Notes: generated by a model not told the origin, from the letters alone. Positions 18,257 through 53,209 are shown, numbered from the stretch's first letter. The stretch is DNA of 64,000 bases from Candidatus Kapaibacterium sp. (GCA_015490805.1 WFXC01000034.1:88656-152655); one strand, 5' to 3'. Made by a program: numbers and translations.

Positions 18257-18808
18257 TTACACGGACGGCTGCCACGGCTCATCCGCGACTCCTCCCTGGT
18301 AGTTCGCCCAGCGCGCCGCAACAAAAAAGAAATCTGATAGTCGATTGATGAAAGGCAAAATATTGGGACCGATATCCTCATTCTCTGCTAATGCTACGAT
18401 CGCGCGTTCAGCTCGGCGGCAGACCGTCCGGGCAAGGTGTAAATAAGCGGCTGAAGGCAAGCCACCGGGCAAAATAAAGTGTTTCAACGGGGGCAATTGC
18501 TCTTCAAACTGATCAATCCATCGTTCCAACTGCTGCGTATACTGTGGTGATATCCGAGAAATTGCTAATGATGTACTCTGCGGCGTTGCTAAATCCGCTC
18601 CTAAAGTAAAGAGCCATTCGCTAATTACCCGCAATTGTTCCGAGAGCGGTTCAGGAGGCTTGCTACTCCGCACGATTCCTACCACAGCGTTGAGTTCGTC
18701 AACCTCACCATACGCTTGTACTCGAACATTTGACTTGGAAACTTTACCAGCACCGAACAAAGCTGTTGTTCCCTGATCGCCAGTACGCGTATAAATTTTT
18801 AATGCCAT
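18257..18808 (-). CDS. Cob(I)yrinic acid a,c-diamide adenosyltransferase, PduO type
   Basis: A 183-residue ATP:corrinoid adenosyltransferase that converts cob(I)alamin to adenosylcobalamin in the cytoplasm. Signatures: the N-terminal ATP-binding motif IYTRTGDQGTTALFGAGKVSKS (quoted in parts: YTRTGDQGTT, LFGAGKVSK), GEVDELNAVVG, FILPGG and CRRAERAIVAL near 125-150. The helix-bundle core and length match MMAB/PduO. AAAGGA and AGGG stand just upstream of the ATG. No other B12 gene is adjacent, but a riboswitch-controlled B12 uptake module lies at 38.7-42.3 kb, which implies that the cell imports and activates corrinoids. Confidence 0.94.
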   Translation of the reverse strand: MALKIYTRTGDQGTTALFGAGKVSKSNVRVQAYGEVDELNAVVGIVRSSKPPEPLSEQLRVISEWLFTLGADLATPQSTSLAISRISPQYTQQLERWIDQFEEQLPPLKHFILPGGLPSAAYLHLARTVCRRAERAIVALAENEDIGPNILPFINRLSDFFFVAARWANYQGGVADEPWQPSV

Positions 18809-38728: not shown

Positions 38729-38736
38729 TAAATTTG
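38729..38736 (+). promoter_or_regulatory. TAnnTTTG -7 element driving the cobalamin riboswitch
   Basis: TAAATTTG ends 10 bases before P1 of the riboswitch, so transcription would begin almost exactly at the aptamer. A T-rich stretch sits at the -33 position (38706-38711). Confidence 0.6.
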
Positions 38737-38746
38737 TGGTTTGCCG

Positions 38747-38916
38747 TTGCGGGTGTCCGCTCGGACTTAATAGGGAAACAGGTGAAAATCCTGTGCGGTA
38801 GCGCCGCCGTGACGGGGGACGAGCCGCTTACGCCTACGGGCAGCCACTGTCCACAATCGGGTGGATGGGAAGGCAAGCGGTGAGGATGATCCCGGAGCCG
38901 GAAGACCTGCCCGCAA
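38747..38916 (+). ncRNA. Cobalamin (B12) riboswitch aptamer
   Basis: P1 is formed by TTGCGGG (38747-38753) and CCCGCAA (38910-38916), a perfect 7-bp stem. Inside lie the conserved blocks GGGAAACAGGTGAAAATCC, TGCGGTAGCGCCGCCGTGA, GCCACTGT, TGGGAAGGC and the B12 box AGCCGGAAGACCTGCC (38896-38911). The order and spacing match the Rfam Cobalamin class with a full peripheral P7-P11 arrangement (adenosylcobalamin type by build). It precedes a beta-propeller and TonB-receptor pair. Confidence 0.95.
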
Positions 38917-38918
38917 CG

Positions 38919-39096
38919 CTCGTCGGTGGATACGCTTCAGGAGCGTGTCCAACATCCGCGCTTACGGATGCGACGAGGGAATGCTCGCCAGATGACCGTA
39001 GCATTTCCCTGTTGAGTCGCTCCGGAGAGCTCTGGAACGGGAGAAATTGTCAGTGTTATGGTAGTGTGTTTGTATCACAAAACAGGGGAATGCTCC
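38919..39096 (+). promoter_or_regulatory. Expression platform of the B12 riboswitch
   Basis: A three-way junction is closed by CTCGTCG (38919-38925) and CGACGAG (38971-38977); its arms are GGATACGCT/AGCGTGTCC (38928-38950) and CATCCG/CGGATG (38953-38970). Downstream, AGCATTTCCCT (39000-39010) can pair with AGGGAATGCT at 38976-38985 (one bulge) or with AGGGGAATGCT at 39084-39094, an 11-bp duplex with one G-U that buries the Shine-Dalgarno AGGGGA of the next gene. The first partner overlaps the closing stem of the junction by two bases, so the folds compete. Translational control is inferred; no T-run terminator is present. Confidence 0.6.
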
Positions 39097-39097
39097 G

Positions 39098-40402
39098 ATG
39101 CGTTCATTGTCCTCCTTTGTTCTCGCTCTGCTTTGCATTACCTTTGCCTGGACACAACAACCCGTAAAAGTGCCGGTTGGCAAGCAACCCTTAGCTGTTT
39201 TTGCCGTTCAGGGAAAAATCCACGTATTCTGTGGACGAGTGGACCAGAATTTCAATGGTGAACAAGATGCAGAAGACACTCCCCCTTCGTGGTGGATTCT
39301 GAATCCCTCCAGCGAAACGGTGGAACAAAACATTGAACTGCCGTGGACTGCCCTGGGTTTTCCAGCACGCCTTGCTATTGACTCGATCAACAACAAAGTC
39401 TACCTGCCAGCAAGTGATTCCATCCTGATTTATGATCTTGCCTCACAGCAAAAAATAGGAGCAATTGGAACGGGAGAAGCAATCCGCAGTGTCAGCATCG
39501 ATATTCCTTCCCAGACGCTCTTTTTCTGCGCTTCAGGATTTCAGACTACTTCGACTGTCTATATGCATAATCTGACCACGGGAGCCCGGCAAGCCGTATT
39601 CGCGACCGACACCATCGCCTATCTCCAAACGGCTCTCCCTGTCCGCCTCCGCAACGGTGACTCAGTTCTGGTTCTCTTATTTGAAGGCACCTTTGGTCAA
39701 ACAGATTCCCGCTTAGTGCTGCTTTTCGAAGATCACGTCACGATTCTGCCCATTGGGGGGCTGGGAAACCACATCGCTGCCTTTGGAGATACAGTTATCG
39801 TTACAATGAACGGCTCTCACCAGATTCATCTGGTCGACCTGCGTACTGAAAGCATTGTGCAAACCATCGCCACGGGAACTGATGGATACAATGGTCCCCG
39901 TGAAAGTCTTTTGTGGGATCACTACATTGTAACGTCGACTTATAACAGCGATGTGCGCTTCTTTGATCTCAGTAGTGGCGAACTCCGCTACACACTTGAC
40001 CCTCAGGGGAAACCCGAAGGCTTTGCCATTGCCAGTGGAAAACTGTGGATAGCAAATGCTTTTATTGCGGGTTCTTACGACCCGGATTCAACCATTTCCA
40101 TTCTTCCTCTTCCGACCACCGGTATTTCCCCATCGCACGGTGAGACTTTGGCTTCTCTTCCCGTTCGGATCTCGTTCGATCCCACTACCAATCGCATTCG
40201 TTTCAGCGCTGACGCTCCTCTGCACATCCAGCAGATTCGCATCAATACACTGGAAGGCAGAACACTGCTGCTCCAGTCTGATGTAGCGCTTTCTCCGTCA
40301 GGACGGGAATTTACGCTTCCTCCGACAGCATCGACGACCGTATACTGCTCCGTCCAGATGAAAGGCCGCAGCTTCACACTGGTATTACCACTGATTCGGT
40401 AA
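39098..40402 (+). CDS. Secreted beta-propeller, BtuG-like corrinoid-binding candidate with T9SS-type tail
   Basis: A 434-residue protein. Signal peptide 1-19 (ending AWTQQ) has no lipobox. Residues about 21-345 form repeating propeller blades of the YncE/DUF5074 kind (KVYLPASDSILIYDLASQ, QIHLVDLRTESIVQTIATG, VRFFDLSSGELRYTLD). DQNFNGEQDAED is an Asp/Asn-rich loop seen in similar secreted proteins. Residues about 346-434 resemble a T9SS sorting domain (RISFDPTTNRIRFSA to the end at VLPLIR). Known BtuG proteins of Bacteroidota are surface lipoproteins that bind B12 and cap BtuB; here the gene follows a B12 riboswitch and lies 5 bases before a TonB receptor. Role is inferred from that context. 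AGGGGA stands 8 bases before the ATG. Confidence 0.78.
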   Translation: MRSLSSFVLALLCITFAWTQQPVKVPVGKQPLAVFAVQGKIHVFCGRVDQNFNGEQDAEDTPPSWWILNPSSETVEQNIELPWTALGFPARLAIDSINNKVYLPASDSILIYDLASQQKIGAIGTGEAIRSVSIDIPSQTLFFCASGFQTTSTVYMHNLTTGARQAVFATDTIAYLQTALPVRLRNGDSVLVLLFEGTFGQTDSRLVLLFEDHVTILPIGGLGNHIAAFGDTVIVTMNGSHQIHLVDLRTESIVQTIATGTDGYNGPRESLLWDHYIVTSTYNSDVRFFDLSSGELRYTLDPQGKPEGFAIASGKLWIANAFIAGSYDPDSTISILPLPTTGISPSHGETLASLPVRISFDPTTNRIRFSADAPLHIQQIRINTLEGRTLLLQSDVALSPSGREFTLPPTASTTVYCSVQMKGRSFTLVLPLIR

Positions 40403-40407
40403 GGCTT

Positions 40408-42294
40408 ATGCACAGCTCCCCTCAAAGCGGGAGGGATCTTTTGTCCCTCCTGCTCTGCTTTACTCTTCTGTTTGCACCAGCACTGGCACAGGACTCCGTT
40501 CGTTATCGCCTTCCTCCTGTTACCGTAGAACGCCCGGCATTTCAGATTCCGGGCATTACCCCACAGTACACGATTTCAACGGTTGCTATCGCCCAATTAG
40601 CACCGACTCGATTACATGCGTTGCTGAGCTTCACTCCTGGCGTTTTTATTCGCGACTATGGAGGTTTTGGAGGACTAAAAACGATTTCGCTGCGAGGCAG
40701 TGGTGCGGCACAAACGAGCATCTATCTGGAAGGATTTCCACTCAATGCTCTGCAAAATGGGATCGTTGACCTTGGAACCCTTCCAGCCACAATTTTCCAG
40801 CGGGTTGCATTTTACAAATCTGCTGTTCTGCCCGAAGATATTGGAGCGAATATTGGGGGATCTGTCCATCTGTTTTTGCCATCTACCCAACCTCTTTCTG
40901 CCATCGTGGAAGTAGGCTCGTTTGGCTATCGACAAATGACACTGGCAGGGAACCTGAACACTCAGACCTTTCTTGTAAGCAACTTTCTTCAATCACGGGG
41001 CAATTATCCTTTTGTTTTCACGAACTTTGGCAAGCGCACCCTCATTCGGCGGCAAAACAGCGATATCCAGAGCTGGAACCTGCTACTCAGTCACCGGCAC
41101 ACCACATCGCACTTCTTCCTCAAAAATCTGAGTTTTTTCTCCTACACTCATCGAGGAGTGCCGGGAGCTGTCGTGCAAGGTGCGATTGAAAATCGCCGGG
41201 CTCGGCTACGACAAAGGGATTTCTGGACCGCTCTTGCTGTCGGTATTTCCACTAAAGCGGCTATGGTTGAAACGCTGGCGTTGTTTCGTGCTTTGCAGAC
41301 AGGGTTCACCGACCCTGAAATGACCGTGTTCGGAAAAACAGGATTTCGGAGTCGATACTTAGAGACACAAACGCTACTCCAGACGCGATTCTGGTGGCGT
41401 TTTCATCTTGGCTGGCGACTGATCGGCAATCTTGCTCTTTCCAGTGCGCGATTGTATGGTCCAATGCTCCAGCCGGAGGTTGGTCGCAAGGTCTCTCAGC
41501 AACAAATATCCGCAACGGGGGGCATCAGCTTTGAAGCTTCCAATTGGAACATTTTGGGTGCAATCAAACTCCTTGCACTTCCTCCTGCTATCGTCTGGCT
41601 TCCTTCCCTGTCTTTCCAGTGGCAGTATCAATTTTTCCAGTGGTCGCTCCAAATTTCACGGAATCACCGCTTTCCGACTTTCAACGAGCGGTACTATTTG
41701 AATTACGGCAATGCCAACCTCCGCCCTGAGCAAAGCTGGAATCTCGATTTCAGCACGCGCCTTACTCTGTCCGAATACAGTGTTGCTCTCTCCACCTTTA
41801 TGAGCCGGATCCACAACCTGATTCTCTCGGTTCCGAAATCACCGGTTGAATGGCAGGCTCAAAATATTGGGAAAGTCCTTCGTTACGGTGCTGAGCTCAC
41901 TATAGAAGGAACCCTTGGCCATTCTTTTCACCAGGTTAACTTCACCTTTCAGCACAGTCGCAACCAGACACCGGGTAGTCCTCATTATGGCAAGCAGCTC
42001 AGCTACACCCCCCAATGGCTCTTCCGATACCTGCTGAGCGTAACCATCGATTCTTTTCAGGTGGGCAGTATTCTGGAAGGCACAGGAGCGCGTTACGCTC
42101 TTCCATCGAACCTCCAACAAAGCCGGCTTCCGCCTTACTGGATCTGGAACCTTTACCTCCGCTACTGGATTCCCTCTTTGGGCACCGAAGTTCGCTTTGA
42201 ATGTCAGAACTGCTCTAACACCCGGTATGCTGTTATCTGGCATTATCCAATGCCGGGACGATGGTTTCGCTTACTGCTTCGCCAGCAGTGGTAG
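40408..42294 (+). CDS. TonB-dependent outer-membrane receptor, BtuB-like
   Basis: A 628-residue outer-membrane receptor. Signal peptide 1-27 (ending APALAQ), possible TonB box in LPPVTVERP, plug domain about 45-150 (LSFTPGVFIRDYGGFGGLKTISLRG, quoted in part; SIYLEGFPLNALQNGIVDLGTL; then IGGSVHLFL), then a 22-strand-type barrel ending in a terminal aromatic (LLLRQQW). The length is that of BtuB (about 600) and far below SusC. The riboswitch and the 5-base gap after the propeller gene support corrinoid import. No btuCDF, tonB or exbBD is in the window. Confidence 0.85.
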   Translation: MHSSPQSGRDLLSLLLCFTLLFAPALAQDSVRYRLPPVTVERPAFQIPGITPQYTISTVAIAQLAPTRLHALLSFTPGVFIRDYGGFGGLKTISLRGSGAAQTSIYLEGFPLNALQNGIVDLGTLPATIFQRVAFYKSAVLPEDIGANIGGSVHLFLPSTQPLSAIVEVGSFGYRQMTLAGNLNTQTFLVSNFLQSRGNYPFVFTNFGKRTLIRRQNSDIQSWNLLLSHRHTTSHFFLKNLSFFSYTHRGVPGAVVQGAIENRRARLRQRDFWTALAVGISTKAAMVETLALFRALQTGFTDPEMTVFGKTGFRSRYLETQTLLQTRFWWRFHLGWRLIGNLALSSARLYGPMLQPEVGRKVSQQQISATGGISFEASNWNILGAIKLLALPPAIVWLPSLSFQWQYQFFQWSLQISRNHRFPTFNERYYLNYGNANLRPEQSWNLDFSTRLTLSEYSVALSTFMSRIHNLILSVPKSPVEWQAQNIGKVLRYGAELTIEGTLGHSFHQVNFTFQHSRNQTPGSPHYGKQLSYTPQWLFRYLLSVTIDSFQVGSILEGTGARYALPSNLQQSRLPPYWIWNLYLRYWIPSLGTEVRFECQNCSNTRYAVIWHYPMPGRWFRLLLRQQW

Positions 42295-42386: not shown

Positions 42387-43724
42387 ATGGAAGCTTTGGG
42401 ACGGCACATTCTCGTCGAACTGTACAACTGCTCTCCGAAACTTCTCAATGATGTCGCCTTCATTGAACGAGAAATGATCAAAGCCGCGGACTTAGCAAAC
42501 GCCACCTTGATCAATTCCACATTTCACCATTTCTCTCCCTTTGGAGTTTCGGGCGTTGTGGTGATCCAGGAAAGCCACTTAGCCATTCACACCTGGCCCG
42601 AGTACGGCTACGCAGCTATCGATCTTTTTACTTGTGGCGACAGTGTGAATCCGTGGACCGCTTACAAACATCTGTTCAAAGTACTGGAAGCAGAGCACGG
42701 ATCGGCAATGGAAATGCAACGTGGTCCCACGGAATTGCTGGAGAAAATGAGTATCGATCTGGAAACACTGCGTGATTCCACAGAGGAAGAAATTCTTCGA
42801 CCGAAACTCACTCGAAATGTATGGTTTACCGATCGGAATGAAAACTTAGCTCTTTCTTTGCGTCACACCGGAAATGTTCTATTCCGGAAGCGTTCGCCAT
42901 ACCAGAAAGTGGAGGTTTATGAAACCTATGGCTTTGGTCGTATGCTGGCTATTGACAATATGGTGATGTGCACGGAAAAAGATGAGTTTGCCTACCACGA
43001 AATGATTGCCCACGTTCCTATGAACGTTCTGGACGATCCTAAGCATGTTCTGGTCATTGGTGGTGGTGACGGTGGTACTATTCGGGAAGTGCTTCGTCAC
43101 AGCTCTGTCGAAAAATGCACAATGGTGGAAATTGATGAAACCGTTATTGAAGCCAGCAAAAAATATCTTCCCTCTCTTGCCTCTGCCTTTGGACACCCGA
43201 AATTAGACCTCAAAATTATGGATGGCGTGGAATTCGTGACCAACTGCCCGGATGAACATTTTGATCTTGTCATTGTGGATTCGACCGACCCGTATCAAGA
43301 TGCGCCCTCCACGGGGTTATTCACCGAAGAGTTTTACCGGAATGTTTACCGCATTTTGAAACCTCACGGCGTAATGGTGACCCAATGCGAATCGCCGTAC
43401 TTTAATGCTCACATTTTGCGCAAAGCCATTTTTGCTTTCCGCCGAATCTTCGGGCAAAACAATGTTCACCTGTACTTAGCTTTTATCCCCACGTATCCAT
43501 CGGGTATGTGGAGTTTTTCCTTCTCATCTAAAGATGGACGCCATCCAGTTGAGGATGTTGACTGGCAAAAGGTTCAACACTTCGTTGACACCCATCAACT
43601 GCGGTACTATAACGCTGAGGTTCATCGCGCTGCTTTTGCCCTGCCAACGATGGTGCGGGAACTTATCACTAAAGAAGACATTGAGGTCGAAGTCTACACA
43701 GAAAGTCTGGTTGATCTGCCGTAA
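42387..43724 (+). CDS. speD-speE: Fused S-adenosylmethionine decarboxylase - spermidine synthase
   Basis: A 445-residue two-domain enzyme. Residues 1-125 are a bacterial AdoMetDC proenzyme: the self-cleavage site is E62-S63 in [15 protein letters not shown] (Ser becomes the pyruvoyl group), with H68 and C83 as processing residues. Residues about 143-430 are an aminopropyltransferase: [43 protein letters not shown] (SAM site, 221-237), MVEIDETV and the catalytic [12 protein letters not shown]. One polypeptide thus makes and uses decarboxylated SAM. Such fusions are known in several phyla. GGAGGAG lies 8 bases before the ATG. The agmatinase-like gene follows after 21 bases. Confidence 0.95.
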
Positions 43725-44834: not shown

Positions 44835-45713
44835 ATGCTGCCGGAGGAACTGGAAAAAGAAATGGAACGATATACGATCCGCGACTTTGCGGATATCGTC
44901 CGTGCTCTGCGCGATCACCCTGTATGGCGGGAGGAACTTCGGAAGTTGATCCTTGGAACGGAATGGGAAAACGTTCCGAAAAAGCTGGATGAGCTGGAAC
45001 GACGGGTTGCTCACATTGAACAGGATGTTGCTGTTCTCAAACAGGACGTTGCCGTCCTCAAACAGGACGTTGCCGTCCTCAAACAGGACGTTGCTACCCT
45101 CAAACAAGATGTTGCCGTCTTGAAACAAGAGGTCGCCGTCCTTAAACAGGATGTCGCCACCCTCAAACAGGATGTCGCTGTCTTGAAACAGGAGGTCGCC
45201 GTCCTTAAACAGGATGTCGCTACCCTTAAACAAGAAGTTGCTGTCCTGAAACAGGATGTGGAGAAACTCAAAGGCGATGTCAACTATCTGAAAGGCGAAT
45301 TTGGGCGGTTTAAGGGACGGGACTTTGAGCGATCAGTGAAAGACCGGTGTGCATCTATTTTTGGCAAATTCCTCCGCCGCACTCGCTGCCTCTATCCCGA
45401 TGCACTGATCGATCTGATTGATGACGCCGTTGATGAAGGTCGGATTGACATCAAGGATCGAGAAAGGTTGCTTAACCTGGACTTAGTGGTTAAGGGCATA
45501 GACCACAACACCAATGAAAAAACTGCCTTCGCTGTTGAAATTTCTTATGCCCTCTATCCCACTGATGTTGAACGCGTGCTGGATCGCACCCCGCTACTAC
45601 AGCGGATTTTTGATGAAACCGTTCACCCAGTCATTGTATCATCAGAAATCAGTGAAGAAGCCCGGCAACTGGCTATCGCGCGGGGTATTCGCATCATCCA
45701 GTACGAGTACTGA
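44835..45713 (+). CDS. Long coiled-coil protein with PD-(D/E)XK-like C-terminal domain
   Basis: A 292-residue cytoplasmic protein. An N-terminal helical region (1-55, DFADIVRALRDHPVWREELRKL) leads into a parallel coiled coil of 13 heptads of the form QDVAVLK (about 63-153), where Val/Leu fill a and d. The C-terminal domain (about 160-292) resembles DUF3782-type restriction-nuclease-like domains: LDLVVKG and FAVEISYAL correspond to the D and ExK strands, but the Lys is replaced by Ser, so it may be catalytically dead. Similar proteins are common in thermophiles and cyanobacteria with unknown role. Independent of its neighbours as far as can be seen. Confidence 0.8.
   Translation: MLPEELEKEMERYTIRDFADIVRALRDHPVWREELRKLILGTEWENVPKKLDELERRVAHIEQDVAVLKQDVAVLKQDVAVLKQDVATLKQDVAVLKQEVAVLKQDVATLKQDVAVLKQEVAVLKQDVATLKQEVAVLKQDVEKLKGDVNYLKGEFGRFKGRDFERSVKDRCASIFGKFLRRTRCLYPDALIDLIDDAVDEGRIDIKDRERLLNLDLVVKGIDHNTNEKTAFAVEISYALYPTDVERVLDRTPLLQRIFDETVHPVIVSSEISEEARQLAIARGIRIIQYEY
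45021..45251 (+). repeat. 21-bp tandem repeat array inside the coiled-coil gene
   Basis: Eleven near-perfect copies of a 21-bp unit (CAGGATGTTGCTGTTCTCAAA form), each encoding one heptad, followed by two degenerate ones. Units 5-7 and 8-10 form a 63-bp higher-order repeat (heptads DVAVLKQ, EVAVLKQ, DVATLKQ twice), a sign of recent duplication. Confidence 0.92.
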
Positions 45714-45716
45714 TCC

Positions 45717-48700
45717 TTATGGAAGGAGCAAAACCTTTGTTCTCTGTACCAGCCGATCGTTCGCATCGTAAATTTCCACGATATAAACTCCGGGCTCGAT
45801 AGCAAAATCGGTCAGATACCATCGAAGTGTTCCCGTCGAAGAGAGTGGTAATGACGGAACAATCAGCTCACCGGCTGCTGAGCGCACCACTCCATAACCA
45901 TTGTCGGGCACATTGCTTACCGTCACCACAAAATCTCTGGACAGTGACACCGGATTGGGATATACAATGGGCACCCCTGTCCCATCAGTTGGGACCCATA
46001 TAGCTACCTGATCCCCTTTTCCGGATTGCAGTGTATCCCCTGCCAGTGATTGCACAGACTCCGCTCGCACAAAGTAGGGCATTCCGATGGGTCGCAATGG
46101 TGTCGATGGATCTATCGATAGGCTTACAGTCGTATCATTCTGCAGCATCGCCGAAACGACTGTACGGTGTGGCGTAATGGTATAGCGTTCGGGGTTCTCC
46201 GCCGATTCCCTATGCACAGCGCTCGAAAACACCAGATCTATCTGTAACGCTGATCGATAATTTCCTCGCACGATCCAGAAACCCGCTGGACGTTCCTGCT
46301 CTGGTGGAAGCTGGACTGAAAACTGATAGAGACGCGTTTTTCCATAGTATCCATCAGCAAAGCTGGCAACGCTGCCCTCATAATATCCTGGTGCCAGCGA
46401 ATCAAAGAGTGCAACAACTACATTGGATCCCATTACTGCCAGCGTCACCGGCGAAAAAGTCCTTCCCTGAACATTCCGCAGAGTCACCCACTGCGGCTTC
46501 AGCAGCGGTGGATCGATCGGAGCATCATATATGATCCGCAAAGCCGCCGTTCCCACAGGAGCAACTTCCCTGACACGCGGATCTGCCCGCAACTGCATCT
46601 GCAGCGTATCCGCTATGGCATCAGCCGCTGACACTCGAAATGTATAGAACGTTCCCACCTGCAGTGAATCCACAACAATCGCCGCCTGAGCAGTAACAAT
46701 GGTATCCATCCCATCGGCTGATCGCACAATAACAGTATACTGTGCCACCGGCAACGGATCCCACCAGAGCTGCACTGTCGTTGAATCCACAATTGCCGCC
46801 TGCAATCCGGTAATCGCATAGCGTGCCATTGGCTGGCGTTGCTGAAGTACCGCAACAGAGCGAAATCGAGAAACAAACACTTTCAGTGAATCACTCCAGA
46901 TGGTATTTGCTGCCACGCTATCCAGTACAAACCATGGTTGAAATTGATTTCCCTGCGGCTGCAATACATACAGGTATGGATAAAATGCCAGCAGCAATTC
47001 TGCCCTGCTATCACCATTAACATCCTGACATTGAATGCCGCTCCGAAAAGGCGTTTTGGGAAGTGCTCCCCAGAAATAATCTTCCCATTGCTGGCGATAC
47101 TGATTCGGCGCAACAGCATCATAAAGGCGACAGATCCACAGTGGCGCCAGTGCTTCGCCAGTGCCTTCAGGGACCAGAAAAGTCGTATAACCAACCACCA
47201 GCTCATCCGTTCCATCACCATCCACATCGCCAGCCGCTAGGTATCCATCGCTATTCCAGAAACCAGTTCCAATCACCGTATCCAGCCTCCATCCTCCCGC
47301 TTCCTGTTGATAGATGAGCACATCACCATCGCTATCTGCAAAAGCAAGCTCCACCAATCCATCTCCATCAAAATCACCCGTTTGTACGCCGGGGACGCCC
47401 AGAAAATTCCTGCCGAAATAAGGATCTGGTTCAGACACATTCGGCAACCGGGCGTCAAATTGCAACGTGTTCTGGTGAAACTTTCCAATCAGATACGCCG
47501 TTTCGCTTCGCACAATCACCTCGTCCTTCCCATCGCTGTCGACATCGTCCAGCGCTGCTGCCCACAACGTATCGGATTCCCACAGCACTGTTCCAAAGAC
47601 ACGCGAAGTCTCTCGCATCAGCCGGGTCTGATTACCTCGATGGAGCAGTACTTCTTTGCGCCCATCCCCATCGACATCACCGATTGCTTTGGGAATCCAG
47701 ACTTCCTCCAGCGAATCTATGGGATGCAATTGTCCACTGGAATCAACAGCAAAAGCAAGGGTTTGCTGAAACCGCAACGCAGGAGTTAACTGGACAGCTA
47801 CGATAGTATCACTTCCCTTTCCCACATCGCTCATCCAGTACAGCGGATGCGCAAAAGCGCGACCGGTAATCTGGAAAGTATTCCGAGGAAAATGCTGTAA
47901 TTGAAAAAATATTTGTCGACGCGTTACAACAGTATCTCGCTGTCCCGGATACCAGTACCGTAGCTCCAGTTGCAGTTCTCCTGTCCGTTGTGGGTGCAGT
48001 AGAAAAACGTGGGATCGCGTCGCTCGATCCGCAATAAACTGTTCGCTCCACGCTTCCTGGAGCGATTGGCGCCAGCGAACCGCCATCAGCGCTGGCAAAT
48101 CCGTTACTGCTTCCACAACAATCGCCCGCCGCCCTCCATCCCAGACAGGTAGTACCTGTACAAATGACAACACAGGAGCTCCGCTCACAAGGGTAAAGCG
48201 AGCTTTTGCCCGAAGTTGCTGTCCGGTTACCAGCATTGCCCGAACCTCTATCAAGTACTCCCCATCAGTCAAAGAACGCAACACCAACGGCGGACACTGG
48301 CACGACAAGCATCGCTGGAAAACGCACAGGGTATCCAATGGCATAAATCCGCTTTCTGCTTCGCGACGATACAGAACGGCCTTTGCTGACACCAACTGAG
48401 AATCATCCGCGATGATCTGAACTGGAACCTCCGAAGAACGGAGTCGGTGGATCACCGATAAATGCTTCGGTGATAAAATCTGCACCGTTCCCACTGCTGG
48501 CAAAGCGGTTGCTGAAACCAGATCAATTCTTCCAGCACCGAAAAAAGGATCCCATCCCGGCTCTCCCAGATCCACAGCCGTCGCCGCCAGAGCCTGCGCA
48601 ATCTGCTGCGGCGACCACCGGGGATGCAGTTCCCGGAGTAATGCTGCTGCTCCGGTGACGATTGCCGCCGCCACTGACGTACCACTGACCAGTGTTAGAC

Positions 48701-49736
48701 CACCGCCACGCGCCGTTGTGGGAACTTCAACACCCGGAGCGGCAAGATCGATGTCCTGCCCATAGTTTGAAAAAATGGCTCTATGATCGTCAAAGGTGGT
48801 CGCAGCAACGGCAATCACCTCATTCAACGCCGACGGAAAATGAAAAGCGCTCTTTCCATCATTCCCTGCTGATGCCACCACGACAATACCACGACTTGTG
48901 GCAACCTGAATAGCCAACTGTACAACGGGAGAAAGGTAGTAATTGCCGTAGCTCAGATTGATGCAATCAGCCCCCATCAAAACAGCGTAGAGAATACCAG
49001 CGGCGACGCCCATATCTGACCCTGTTCCTTCAGCAGTAAATACTCTGATGGGTAGCAGGGTAGCGGATTTTGCAATACCGGTAATAAACTGACCGTTCCC
49101 GCCCACAATGACTCCTGCCATTGCTGTCCCGTGCCCGTGCTCGTCTTCTGGTATAGGATCCGGGTTGCGCCAATCACCCACCGAGGGAAGCACCGACTCT
49201 GCAAAGTCGTATCCCATCACGTCATCCACCACCCCATTGCCATCATCATCGACGCCATCCAGATCTCCCGGCAGTCCATCTCGCTCTTCCGTGAACCACC
49301 AGGGATCAAACCGTCCATTGCCATTACGATCTTCTGCAGGATTGATAAACAAATGGGATTGCAAGGCAGGATGCTCCCAGTCAATTCCGGTATCCACCAG
49401 CGCAACAATCACCCCCTTCCCCTGGGTTCTTTGCCACACAACGGGCAAATGAAAAAATTTCGACAATCGATCACTGGAAACCGGAGGTTCAGCAAGGATT
49501 TGCGCTGGATCCTGCAGCCGGTACATTGTAGCAGGGAGGGTCAAAACCGAAACCTGCCGCGCTTGCTCTGACAGCGTGCGTAACAAAGCCGTCAAATGAG
49601 CATCATTCGATTGTTGCTGCAACCTTTCAGCAAAGATCTGGACAAAATGGGCAGTTCCGCTGGTTGATAGCTGTTTCGCCGACGCTGCACCAGCCATTAG
49701 AACCAGACACAGCCATCCTGCGTGCAGCAAGCGCAT
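45717..49736 (-). CDS. Subtilisin-like (S8) protease with FG-GAP repeats and T9SS sorting domain
   Basis: A 1339-residue secreted protein. Signal peptide 1-20. S8 catalytic domain about 90-400 with triad D115 (ALVDTGIDW), H202 (HGHGTAMAG) and S354 (SGTSVAAA), and oxyanion Asn in SAGNDG. RNGNGRFD, DGVDDDGNGVVDD are Ca-binding loops. Five Dx[DN]xDG repeats of the FG-GAP/VCBS type (about 680-910: GDVDGDGRKEV, DDVDSDGKDEV, GDFDGDGLVEL, GDVDGDGTDEL, QDVNGDSRAEL) make a propeller, then an Fn3-like part (about 975-1070). The C-terminal 80 residues (YPNPVSLSRDFVVTVSNV to VEIYDANDRLVQRTK) form a type A T9SS sorting domain. It is co-oriented with the other S8 gene, 17 bases apart. Confidence 0.93.
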   Translation of the reverse strand: MRLLHAGWLCLVLMAGAASAKQLSTSGTAHFVQIFAERLQQQSNDAHLTALLRTLSEQARQVSVLTLPATMYRLQDPAQILAEPPVSSDRLSKFFHLPVVWQRTQGKGVIVALVDTGIDWEHPALQSHLFINPAEDRNGNGRFDPWWFTEERDGLPGDLDGVDDDGNGVVDDVMGYDFAESVLPSVGDWRNPDPIPEDEHGHGTAMAGVIVGGNGQFITGIAKSATLLPIRVFTAEGTGSDMGVAAGILYAVLMGADCINLSYGNYYLSPVVQLAIQVATSRGIVVVASAGNDGKSAFHFPSALNEVIAVAATTFDDHRAIFSNYGQDIDLAAPGVEVPTTARGGGLTLVSGTSVAAAIVTGAAALLRELHPRWSPQQIAQALAATAVDLGEPGWDPFFGAGRIDLVSATALPAVGTVQILSPKHLSVIHRLRSSEVPVQIIADDSQLVSAKAVLYRREAESGFMPLDTLCVFQRCLSCQCPPLVLRSLTDGEYLIEVRAMLVTGQQLRAKARFTLVSGAPVLSFVQVLPVWDGGRRAIVVEAVTDLPALMAVRWRQSLQEAWSEQFIADRATRSHVFLLHPQRTGELQLELRYWYPGQRDTVVTRRQIFFQLQHFPRNTFQITGRAFAHPLYWMSDVGKGSDTIVAVQLTPALRFQQTLAFAVDSSGQLHPIDSLEEVWIPKAIGDVDGDGRKEVLLHRGNQTRLMRETSRVFGTVLWESDTLWAAALDDVDSDGKDEVIVRSETAYLIGKFHQNTLQFDARLPNVSEPDPYFGRNFLGVPGVQTGDFDGDGLVELAFADSDGDVLIYQQEAGGWRLDTVIGTGFWNSDGYLAAGDVDGDGTDELVVGYTTFLVPEGTGEALAPLWICRLYDAVAPNQYRQQWEDYFWGALPKTPFRSGIQCQDVNGDSRAELLLAFYPYLYVLQPQGNQFQPWFVLDSVAANTIWSDSLKVFVSRFRSVAVLQQRQPMARYAITGLQAAIVDSTTVQLWWDPLPVAQYTVIVRSADGMDTIVTAQAAIVVDSLQVGTFYTFRVSAADAIADTLQMQLRADPRVREVAPVGTAALRIIYDAPIDPPLLKPQWVTLRNVQGRTFSPVTLAVMGSNVVVALFDSLAPGYYEGSVASFADGYYGKTRLYQFSVQLPPEQERPAGFWIVRGNYRSALQIDLVFSSAVHRESAENPERYTITPHRTVVSAMLQNDTTVSLSIDPSTPLRPIGMPYFVRAESVQSLAGDTLQSGKGDQVAIWVPTDGTGVPIVYPNPVSLSRDFVVTVSNVPDNGYGVVRSAAGELIVPSLPLSSTGTLRWYLTDFAIEPGVYIVEIYDANDRLVQRTKVLLLP

Positions 49737-49753
49737 AATGCAGCAAATATGGC

Positions 49754-52642
49754 TTACTGGAGCAACACCACTGGTACTATGAAGACCTGCTCAGGCGTGC
49801 GAACCCGGATAAAATACTGAGCATTGCTGACACCGGGCAGCGTCAAAAGCTGCTGAAGTTCGATCCGCTTAACCTGCTGGGGTGCCATTGTCATTACTGG
49901 AAGTTTACCCAACAACCGACCCAGCACAGAAACCAGTTCAACTTCCACTTGCTGCGAATCCAGTGCCTGCAACTCCAATACTGGTAACTGATCCGCCGTT
50001 GCTGGATTGGGATACAGCCGCACCAACAACTTTTGGGGCGACTTTTTCACTGGCATCTGCACATCAACACCTTTGTTCTGCAAATACTCCCGCATTCTGT
50101 CAATCGCAACTCGCACTTCCTGCCGAGACCATCCGGCAGCAATACCAAAAATAAACTTCTCCGATTCTCCGGGTGCCAGCGAAACGGGTCCGCCAGCAAT
50201 CACCGCTGAAACATCTGTCACGTTAGACCGTTCACGACCAATACCACTGGTCATCGTTTGCCACTTCTCCGACCGGGTAAAACCATCGTACACTCCGGGA
50301 TTTGCTCCACCGCTCCCGTCATTATCTATCGCGAAGAAATTGATCGGCTGCTTACTCAGCAACGCCAGTCCAATGTGCGGTAGACTATCGGTGCGGGTGT
50401 TATAGACATAGCCGAAATACCCTTCGTCATCCCATAGACATAGATCTCCCTGTCCGGACATCCCAATATCCCAATCAAAATACAATCCCGTAAACAGAGA
50501 ATCCAAATTCTCCGCTGTTTCATTGGTCACTGTATACTCCAACAATACGACATTTGAGAGTTCAGGAACTAACGGCTCAATCAGACGATGAACAACGCGC
50601 ACCCCCACTTCATCAATCCGTTGTTGATCCTGAAATTGTGTTACTGCCTGTACCTCTTGCTGCTCCACATTCTGGATCACCTGGACCGGTTGCAGAGGAA
50701 CGAAAGATCGATCCTGGCGCATTTGATCAGCACCACGGGCAACATTGGATAGCCGGTCCGGCGAAATACCAACCATCAACGCACCTTCAAACAGTACACT
50801 TGGTCCCCCTTGGTATCGAAAACCATCACCCTGGACATTGTTCGGATAATCATTATATCCCAAGTTTCCCCGATCATTCAATGTCACGGCAATATCATTT
50901 TCTGCTACCGTTCGATACGTTGGATTGACAATTATGGAAAGAAAGGTTCTGCCAATCAACACATCTCCATCATAAAACACCACCCTGAAAGAGTACAGAT
51001 AATTACTCGGCACTGCTTCAGGCAACTGAAGCACCAGCGGTGAGGGAGTACTCCAGGGTTGCAGCGTTTCCAGTGCTCCGATCGATAATGACACGGTAGG
51101 AGGATCTGCCGGATATCGAGTATCACTTTGCAATTCCACTCGCGCGTTCTGCACCGGCGCCAGCACATTCAATGCATCCAGGTTTAAGCGAATCTCCTCT
51201 CCTTTCTCCATTACCTGGTCACCATCGGCATCAGCAAATTGATACCCCTGCACGATCATTGCACGCGTAGACGGAGTACTCACTGCTCTCAACGCATTTA
51301 CTCTCCCATATCCCAGCAATCCAGTGAAATTTGGCTGTAAATGGTCAATGCTATCACAGGTAATCTTCAGATGCTCGCCAATTTGCAGCGGTGAATACTC
51401 CGGATGCTGCACAGCGATCAAAGAAGCAACGCCTGCCGCAACAGGCGAGGCCATTGATGTCCCGCTCTGCCGCCGATACTGATTATTCGGTACTGTAGAC
51501 AAAATATTCTCACCAGGCGCCATTACATCGATAAAGTAGCCGTAATTGGAAAAGTAGGAGCGGCGATTACCGGCATTCACTGAGCCAACCGCAATCACAT
51601 TCTGATATCCTGCCGGATAAAACGTCTGGCGAATTCCTTCATTCCCCGCCGCAGCAACAACCAGCGTTCCGCTCTGCGTTACAGCATCAATGACTTCTTG
51701 CTCAGCGCGTGAGCGGGTAGGACCTCCCCAGCTACAGTTAATAATCCGTGCTCCCATCGCCGCCGCATATACCATTGCCTCATAGCCATAAGCGACAGTA
51801 ACAGAAAACGGATCATCTGGACCCAGTTTGAGAATCAACAGCTTGACATACGGATTCACCCCAGCAATCCCTGTCCCATTATTGACCACCGCTCCGATAA
51901 TCCCCGCTACGTGCGTCCCATGAGAATTACCCGGAACCGGTTCATTATCATCATAGAAAAAATCCCAGCCCTGCCAGTCATCCACATATCCATTGCCGTC
52001 ATCATCAATACCATTGTTCCGTTTATCCCGACCATTGGCATCTGTCCCCATTTCGCCAGAATTCAAAAAGATATGTTCTTGCAAGTCCTCGTGATCCAGA
52101 TCTGCTCCCGTATCCAGTACGGCAACGACTACCGTATCAGCATTTTCCGGTAGATAGTCCCACGCTTCCAGCACGTGAATTTGCTCTAAATACTTTTGAT
52201 CTGCTAACAATGGATCATTCGAAGCCCCAGAAATCCAGCGTTTCGGTACCGGCTCAACATACTCCACAAAAGGCAGCGAAGCAACCAGTTTTTGCACATA
52301 CGCTGGCGCATACGGCTGGGAAATTCTCAAACGGTAAATGCTCTGGAGTCGCTGGACAATTCCAACTGCTCGCTTCTGCAATCCCTGTCGTTGCACCAGT
52401 CGCTGCTGAAACTGGTGTAGCAGTGGGCGGCGAACCAGCGCACGAACCTCTCCGACAATGCCATACTGCTTCAACTTTTGCTTTAGCTGATCGCGCATCT
52501 CTTGCAATGTTTTAGTGCTTTTTGCTGGAGAGGTGAATTTGACAAAAAACTGATCCGGATACACCGTCGCTGATGCATTGCGCGCTACAAGAGTCGTTGC
52601 CATAAAACTCATCAATGTAATCACCACGCCCCACAGTCGCAT
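49754..52642 (-). CDS. Subtilisin-like (S8) protease with T9SS sorting domain
   Basis: A 962-residue secreted protease. Signal peptide 1-25, an inhibitor_I9-like propeptide region (about 28-135, PDQFFVKFTSP to YVEPVPK), then an S8 domain with D177 (AVLDTGADLD), H241 (SHGTHVAG) and S396 (SGTSMASPVAAG), and N334 in AAGNEG. TDANGRDKRNNGIDDDGNGYVDDWQ (in parts) is a Ca-loop region. The middle and C-terminal parts are beta-rich; the last 80 residues (VRLYPNPATADQLPVLEL to FIVPVVLLQ) are a T9SS sorting domain. ATG 52642 with AAAGGA upstream is preferred over a GTG nine codons earlier. First gene of a two-protease operon. Confidence 0.93.
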   Translation of the reverse strand: MRLWGVVITLMSFMATTLVARNASATVYPDQFFVKFTSPAKSTKTLQEMRDQLKQKLKQYGIVGEVRALVRRPLLHQFQQRLVQRQGLQKRAVGIVQRLQSIYRLRISQPYAPAYVQKLVASLPFVEYVEPVPKRWISGASNDPLLADQKYLEQIHVLEAWDYLPENADTVVVAVLDTGADLDHEDLQEHIFLNSGEMGTDANGRDKRNNGIDDDGNGYVDDWQGWDFFYDDNEPVPGNSHGTHVAGIIGAVVNNGTGIAGVNPYVKLLILKLGPDDPFSVTVAYGYEAMVYAAAMGARIINCSWGGPTRSRAEQEVIDAVTQSGTLVVAAAGNEGIRQTFYPAGYQNVIAVGSVNAGNRRSYFSNYGYFIDVMAPGENILSTVPNNQYRRQSGTSMASPVAAGVASLIAVQHPEYSPLQIGEHLKITCDSIDHLQPNFTGLLGYGRVNALRAVSTPSTRAMIVQGYQFADADGDQVMEKGEEIRLNLDALNVLAPVQNARVELQSDTRYPADPPTVSLSIGALETLQPWSTPSPLVLQLPEAVPSNYLYSFRVVFYDGDVLIGRTFLSIIVNPTYRTVAENDIAVTLNDRGNLGYNDYPNNVQGDGFRYQGGPSVLFEGALMVGISPDRLSNVARGADQMRQDRSFVPLQPVQVIQNVEQQEVQAVTQFQDQQRIDEVGVRVVHRLIEPLVPELSNVVLLEYTVTNETAENLDSLFTGLYFDWDIGMSGQGDLCLWDDEGYFGYVYNTRTDSLPHIGLALLSKQPINFFAIDNDGSGGANPGVYDGFTRSEKWQTMTSGIGRERSNVTDVSAVIAGGPVSLAPGESEKFIFGIAAGWSRQEVRVAIDRMREYLQNKGVDVQMPVKKSPQKLLVRLYPNPATADQLPVLELQALDSQQVEVELVSVLGRLLGKLPVMTMAPQQVKRIELQQLLTLPGVSNAQYFIRVRTPEQVFIVPVVLLQ

Positions 52643-53209
52643 CCGCACAATCCTTTCATTTTTTACCACTTTGCTCTTTTTTCATAACACAGTTAACGTG
52701 CTGCCCCGCAAAATCTTTCCTTCCCTTCCACAAACAATCCTCATCCTGTCCCTCCTGTTACATTTCTCCTCAAAACCCAACTCCACGGGAATATATACCA
52801 CAACTCATCGCTATCTCCATCCGTAGGCGAGCAACTCTCACGGCAGATTTACACGCCTCAGAGACGCAATACCCTCCAGCAAGCATCCTCCGCTGGCCCC
52901 CCCTTCACCACAGTCCAGAGGATTCCCTCGCCGTTGCCAACTCTTGCTGGCGAAAGCTGGTACCCTCATCATTGCCGACTGAAGTTAGCGCTTCCAGGTT
53001 GGAGCGCACACTTCAACGTGCATTTACTGGGAACACATCCTTTAGGATGCATTTTTTTGCCGGCTAAAGCCGGCGCTCCCAGCAACTGCCGACCAAAGTC
53101 GGCGCTCCCAGTAATTGCTGGCTAACGCTGGCGCTTCCAGCAGGCACTCTCTGCTGCTGGGAGCACACGCTTCAGTGTGCACGCTATCCTCATCCTCTCG
53201 CCTCCTTCC
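52643..53209. other. Gene-free region upstream of the protease operon
   Basis: About 570 bases. The half near 52650-52850 is T/C-rich on the plus strand and must hold the protease promoter, though no clear TAnnTTTG is seen. The other half is filled by palindromic repeats listed separately. No coding frame looks real. Confidence 0.6.
52943..53184. repeat. Cluster of short palindromic repeats (two families)
   Basis: Eight units in about 240 bases. Family B: TTGCCGGCTAAAGCCGGCG then CTCCCAG (53057-53083), with relatives at 52943, 52971, 53085 and 53113 where stem bases co-vary (GCCGAC/GTCGGC, GCTGGC/GCTGGC). Family A: GGAGCGCACACTTCAACGTG then CATT (53001-53024), relatives at 53029 and 53157. 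Each folds as a hairpin with a loop of TAAA, GAAG or TTCA kind and ends in CTCCCAG or CATCC. These resemble REP-type intergenic elements. Confidence 0.85.

Follow-up and report, generated by a model that had tools for sequence, protein, structure and literature searches.

Here we describe a vitamin B12 (cobalamin)-linked locus within a stretch of 64,000 nucleotides from Candidatus Kapaibacterium sp. (GCA_015490805.1 WFXC01000034.1:88656-152655), referred to below as the window. On its + strand, a cobalamin riboswitch (38734-38928) precedes an open reading frame (ORF) for a β-propeller related to BtuG (39098-40402, 434 residues), which is followed after 5 bases by the ORF of a BtuB-like TonB-dependent receptor (40408-42294, 628 residues). 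The locus is a real and conserved variant of the BtuB/BtuG system and is undescribed in the literature that we searched, where no paper joined BtuG with type IX secretion in the sense found here. BtuG, the surface lipoprotein lid of BtuB in Bacteroides (8blw, 8bmx, 3dsm), shares with the window's propeller the fold, homology, a cobalamin riboswitch and a BtuB neighbour. The window's protein differs in its permuted alignment, in lacking a lipobox, in adding a C-terminal domain of the type IX secretion system (T9SS) type and a calcium-type loop, and in occurring alongside an ordinary BtuG. Judging from sequence, the arrangement is probably an operon that captures and imports corrinoids and is repressed by B12; the propeller, likely exported by the T9SS, would serve as a capture accessory feeding BtuB and BtuG. 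A preliminary description of this DNA had already recognised the complete aptamer, the propeller with its signal peptide and the closely spaced receptor, all of which held up in model searches, ORF analysis and structure prediction; it missed the circular permutation and the fact that the riboswitch is constantly tied to the propeller and not to the pair.

The propeller aligns with BtuG in permuted order

AlphaFold2 modelled the product of the propeller ORF (pLDDT 87) as a β-propeller (residues 22-340) followed by a β-sandwich (residues 356-431). As a single sequence, it matched BtuG1 (8blw chain B) weakly in the PDB. With a profile of 19 relatives, BtuG-type structures made up 12 of the 13 top PDB matches (E 1.6e-18 downwards), the sole other being the generic surface-layer propeller 1l0q, and alignment of the propeller family to a BtuG profile by hhalign gave an E of 4.9e-23. 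The proposed kinship with BtuG and the predicted propeller fold are thus supported. Pfam and NCBIfam returned weak generic propeller matches only, and Foldseek matched the model to propellers without singling out BtuG, propellers being common and the query permuted.

An unpermuted BtuG aligned with the propeller over half its length, with a score of 163. When the BtuG halves were exchanged (C-terminal half before N-terminal half), the alignment ran end to end, from columns 4-320 to 2-319, and the score rose to 222. Controls in which one BtuG half was shuffled fell back to the single-copy score (164-165), which rules out repeat slippage in place of permutation. The window belongs to an order of Bacteroidota whose members are mostly uncultured, and the lipoprotein BtuGs of this order behave correspondingly: positions 185-343 of the T9SS-type propeller profile align with their N-terminal half and positions ~80-180 with their last ~100 residues. 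This permuted match order was seen in 18 of 20 single lipoprotein BtuGs, some with a weak second match. By alignment, the propeller is composed of BtuG blades 5-7, then blades 1-4 and then a C-terminal tail, since an end-to-end alignment was obtained only with the exchanged halves. Residues 23-183 (39164-39646, +), placed first, correspond to blades 5-7, as indicated by the C-terminal match of lipoprotein BtuG and the permuted profile alignment, and residues 189-343 (39662-40126, +) correspond by the hhalign match to blades 1-4. In BtuG2, all 13 hydrogen bonds to B12 come from blades 1-4 (PMC10404256), and the half of the permuted propeller that holds their equivalents is the better conserved one.

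The protein begins with a predicted Sec type I signal peptide (39098-39154, +). A cysteine in its sequence 'LALLCITFAWTQ' was considered as a lipobox and ruled out, as the residue at -1 is unsuitable and the cysteine is replaced by L or S in two congeners; the claim that the propeller lacks a lipobox therefore stands. The lipobox cysteine is missing from the propeller and its relatives and is found in the lipoprotein BtuGs of the order. Nor does the propeller keep the linear blade order of BtuG or the EG motif found at the N-terminus of mature BtuG. Lacking both that blade order and the lipid anchor, it should not be classified as a BtuG. The permuted family has invariant motifs of its own, NGSH and TGTxGYxGPRE, and an EF-hand-like loop. 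In the window this loop, DQNFNGEQDAED (residues 49-60; 39242-39277, +), contains the invariant D49 and may bind calcium. Its pattern is present in 39 of 50 permuted-family members and in none of 16 lipoprotein BtuGs.

A degenerate C-terminal domain likely directs type IX export

Residues 355-434 (40160-40399, +) form the modelled β-sandwich and resemble a degenerate T9SS sorting domain. Known type IX cargo of type A (TIGR04183) has a signal peptide and a C-terminal β-sandwich in common with the propeller, and the genome encodes the T9SS machinery components SprA (906 bits) and PorU, the sortase (788 bits), together with ~46 curated T9SS tails. From 30 of the genome's T9SS tails we constructed a profile, which scored the window's tail at 9.6 bits, compared with 2.3 bits for the best of 500 shuffles, and a profile of two congeners matched the C-terminal domain with an E of 2.5e-8. 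The genome-derived profile reached at least 8 bits in 36 of 50 permuted propellers and in 0 of 16 lipoprotein BtuGs. TIGR04183 itself was matched at E<=1 by 15 of 19 relatives, the best at 7e-12. Structures of T9SS C-terminal domains matched the last ~75 positions of the family profile weakly (E 0.008 and above).

The window's own copy differs from typical cargo in that its tail motifs are degenerate: the usual PNP and GxY motifs are missing and the curated TIGR04183 gave no match to this tail. The suggestion of a T9SS tail accordingly holds for the relatives, the genome-derived and congener profiles and the modelled β-sandwich, but not for the curated model. One could argue from the unmatched TIGR04183 that the domain is no export signal in this genus and that the propeller is periplasmic. 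We regard this as very improbable, as the genome-derived and congener profiles do match the tail and the relatives match strongly. Export of the propeller by the T9SS through its degenerate tail is likely, because these profiles and the relatives agree, SprA and PorU are present and the signal peptide lacks a lipobox.

Two adjoining large subtilisin-like proteases on the - strand of the window (45717-49736 and 49754-52669) also carry T9SS-type tails, with TIGR04183 just below its cut-off.

The cobalamin riboswitch and its leader

The match to RF00174 covers the full model (1-189 of 189) at 100.6 bits (E 5.6e-24; gathering score 31.5 bits). This score and the conserved position upstream of homologous propellers rule out a chance match. 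It is the sole cobalamin riboswitch found in the genome (2.67 Mb, 97% complete). Downstream, AGCATTTCCCTGTT (39000-39013, +) can form a helix of 14 base pairs, one of them G-U, with AACAGGGGAATGCT (39081-39094, +), which contains the Shine-Dalgarno sequence and lies directly 5' of the ATG at 39098. An equally long helix touching the start region arose in 1 of 400 dinucleotide shuffles. By inspection, GGGAATGCT (38977-38985, +) could pair with 39000-39008 and may act as an anti-sequestor arm. All three segments are conserved in two congeners. Control of the propeller gene by B12 is likely exerted through translational repression, as this pairing suggests.

Across the order, the riboswitch accompanies the permuted propeller

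We surveyed 119 genomes of the order and listed 87 permuted propellers whose gene was complete enough to be placed. A cobalamin riboswitch lies upstream of 80 of the 87, at a distance of 300 bases or less in most cases; 80 of the order's 107 riboswitches are thereby accounted for. Of the named loci, all 35 whose upstream region is covered carry the riboswitch directly before the homologous propeller gene; L097 and L098 are truncated, and L077 was outside the scan. A receptor adjoins 38 of the 87 propellers and is apart from the other 49. The constant partner of the riboswitch is therefore the permuted propeller and not the propeller-receptor pair, and a BtuG relative routed via type IX would be the most constant B12-riboswitch target in the order, beside ordinary BtuG. 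Seven propellers have no detectable riboswitch; five belong to one genus, one is cut by a contig end, and six stand beside a TonB receptor. The expectation that B12 regulation would accompany the pair elsewhere is thus upheld in most copies and fails in these. Phylum-wide, 28 of 30 genomes with strong matches fall in the order; the remaining strong matches come from a single family in its class and from one other genome. The closest named records to the window's propeller are Candidatus Kapaibacterium metagenome-assembled genomes (identity 93-94%).

The near-exclusive linkage also bears on whether the propeller binds corrinoids at all. A B12-regulated surface protein with another function, such as a scaffold or a binder of some other ligand, would fit the divergence from BtuG, the family's own motifs and the calcium-type loop. 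The riboswitch linkage, the conserved corrin-binding half and operon neighbours such as BtuB, a BtuH-like protein and BtuG make such a function unlikely in our view.

Variants of the locus were also noted in the survey. Tandem double permuted propellers of 758-825 residues lie under cobalamin riboswitches (L132:757-3180, L131:6135-8609, L133:1067-5828), and in one locus two such genes are consecutive. In one family, the permuted propeller is followed by a sortilin/BNR-repeat protein of ~1070 residues and then a PAP2 phosphatase (L074:7227-10427 and related loci). In another genus, an alpha-ribazole phosphatase-like (CobC) gene (L070:7449-8018) and then RodA come after the propeller. One family (G143, G027, G172, G369 and G378; L108, L109) has riboswitch, lipoprotein BtuG and BtuB in this order and no strong permuted-propeller match.

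An ordinary BtuG is encoded alongside the permuted propeller

The lipoprotein BtuGs of the order (alignment A2) have an invariant lipobox cysteine and match BtuG structures over their full length (E 2.7e-53). Their profile is matched in 114 of the 119 genomes. In the window's genome the gene lies on contig 34 (78409-79446), ~48 kb from the locus; it has the lipobox LFGC and linear blade order, and no riboswitch. Several relatives combine permuted propeller, BtuB, a protein of ~300 residues and lipoprotein BtuG in one operon. Simple replacement of BtuG by the permuted propeller was rejected as the default, given that lipoprotein BtuG is present.

These findings do not support the preliminary proposal of a different architecture for the same lid task. 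According to that proposal, the propeller itself would be the lid on the window's BtuB, a differently anchored stand-in for lipoprotein BtuG. Its adjacency to BtuB here and in the 38 copies counted above, its conserved corrin-binding half and the distant location of the genome's lipoprotein BtuG are what such a lid would show. However, a lipobox-bearing BtuG-type gene is nearly universal in the order and shares operons with the permuted type, and more than half of the permuted propellers are not beside a receptor. Furthermore, the attachment point of BtuG acts as a hinge in BtuBG (PMC10404256), and permutation together with the C-terminal domain would shift this point. We consider a lid function improbable; the permuted propeller is more aptly described as an extra component for capture, because lipoprotein BtuG is present in this genome and in relatives.

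The ~300-residue protein (L148:1614-2501, - strand, contig 43 of G000; L111:3926-4813 and others) matches the BtuH domain of BtuG1 (8blw_B, E 1.8e-4) and BtuH2 (7biz, E 0.028), and a T9SS tail stands at its end. Foldseek matched its model to 8blw_B at a probability of 1.00 with a low TM-score of 0.37, and Pfam gave no match to DUF4465 (BtuJ). The window's genome holds one copy, and one genus has a second riboswitch upstream of the related gene. It is probably a T9SS-exported BtuH-like protein. BtuH, or the BtuH domain fused to BtuG1, is an accessory surface B12-binding protein of B12-uptake loci, the role that we propose for the permuted propeller; it differs in having another fold and a lipoprotein anchor, and the order's probable BtuH-like protein is encoded on its own, with a T9SS tail.

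The receptor and intracellular use of B12

The receptor has the TonB plug (PF07715) and barrel (PF00593), both above cut-off, and its top PDB match over nearly its full length (residues 13-624) is BtuB1 of Bacteroides thetaiotaomicron (8blw_A, E 1.1e-27), in agreement with its initial assignment as the propeller's BtuB-like partner. It falls far under the curated cut-off of the NCBIfam BtuB model TIGR01779 (94.3 against 599.7 bits; E 6.6e-27). We thus call it BtuB-like, with a transport role assigned by homology. No relatives of the receptor were found in viral contigs. The suggested intracellular use of B12 is substantiated by a PduO-type cob(I)alamin adenosyltransferase in the window (18257-18808, -; TIGR00636, E 2.5e-58, above cut-off), and MetH, methylmalonyl-CoA mutase and IcmF are encoded in the genome as further B12 enzymes.

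A model for corrinoid capture

Under the reading that we favour, the riboswitch would leave the first gene's Shine-Dalgarno sequence accessible when B12 is scarce. The permuted propeller would then be exported by Sec and subsequently by the type IX system via its C-terminal domain, and either be anchored at the cell surface once PorU has processed it or be released. Blades equivalent to BtuG blades 1-4 would bind corrinoids and raise the supply to the BtuB-like receptor, whose actual lid is probably the conventional lipoprotein BtuG from the distant gene. Imported B12 may serve MetH, methylmalonyl-CoA mutase and IcmF after adenosylation by PduO. Corrinoid binding, surface fate and hand-over to BtuG and BtuB are attributed to the propeller by homology and are to be read as predictions.

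Several observations weigh against this reading. Besides the motif-poor tail that the curated model leaves unmatched, the half shared with BtuG is ~25% identical, and the corrin-binding half is matched to BtuG by blade and not contact by contact. BtuB adjoins the permuted propeller and not lipoprotein BtuG in the window's genome. The overall folding energy of the leader is not unusual (z -0.89, non-significant), and related genomes in the survey are not independent observations.

A sub-version of the model has the tail removed and the protein set free as a diffusible corrinophore that gathers corrinoids at a distance from the cell. Release is known for T9SS cargo, PorU is encoded here, and riboswitch linkage without BtuB linkage fits a protein acting alone. 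No sequence feature here tells anchored from released cargo, and no receptor-side partner was identified for a released protein; we hold this version to be possible but rather doubtful.

For the order as a whole, we lean slightly towards a broader scheme in which the permuted T9SS-exported BtuG paralogues, some of them tandem doubles, and the T9SS-tailed BtuH-like proteins would constitute a secreted corrinoid-capture layer feeding a conventional BtuB/BtuG lipoprotein gate. To our knowledge, the B12-capture proteins described so far in Bacteroidota are lipoproteins of the cell surface, and such a layer, if it exists, would be the first B12 acquisition system dependent on type IX secretion. It would tie type IX secretion to vitamin scavenging and provide a natural example of circular permutation in a propeller that binds a ligand. 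A single purified domain would be enough to put the notion of secreted corrinoid-capture proteins to the test.

Neighbouring genes

By reading, the genes flanking the locus are not B12-related. Upstream, on the opposite strand, lies an RluA-type pseudouridine synthase. Downstream are polyamine genes, namely an apparent S-adenosylmethionine decarboxylase-spermidine synthase fusion (42387-43724) followed by an agmatinase-like gene. Further on (44835-45713), a protein contains a long stretch of 7-residue coiled-coil repeats (VAVLKQD/VATLKQD).

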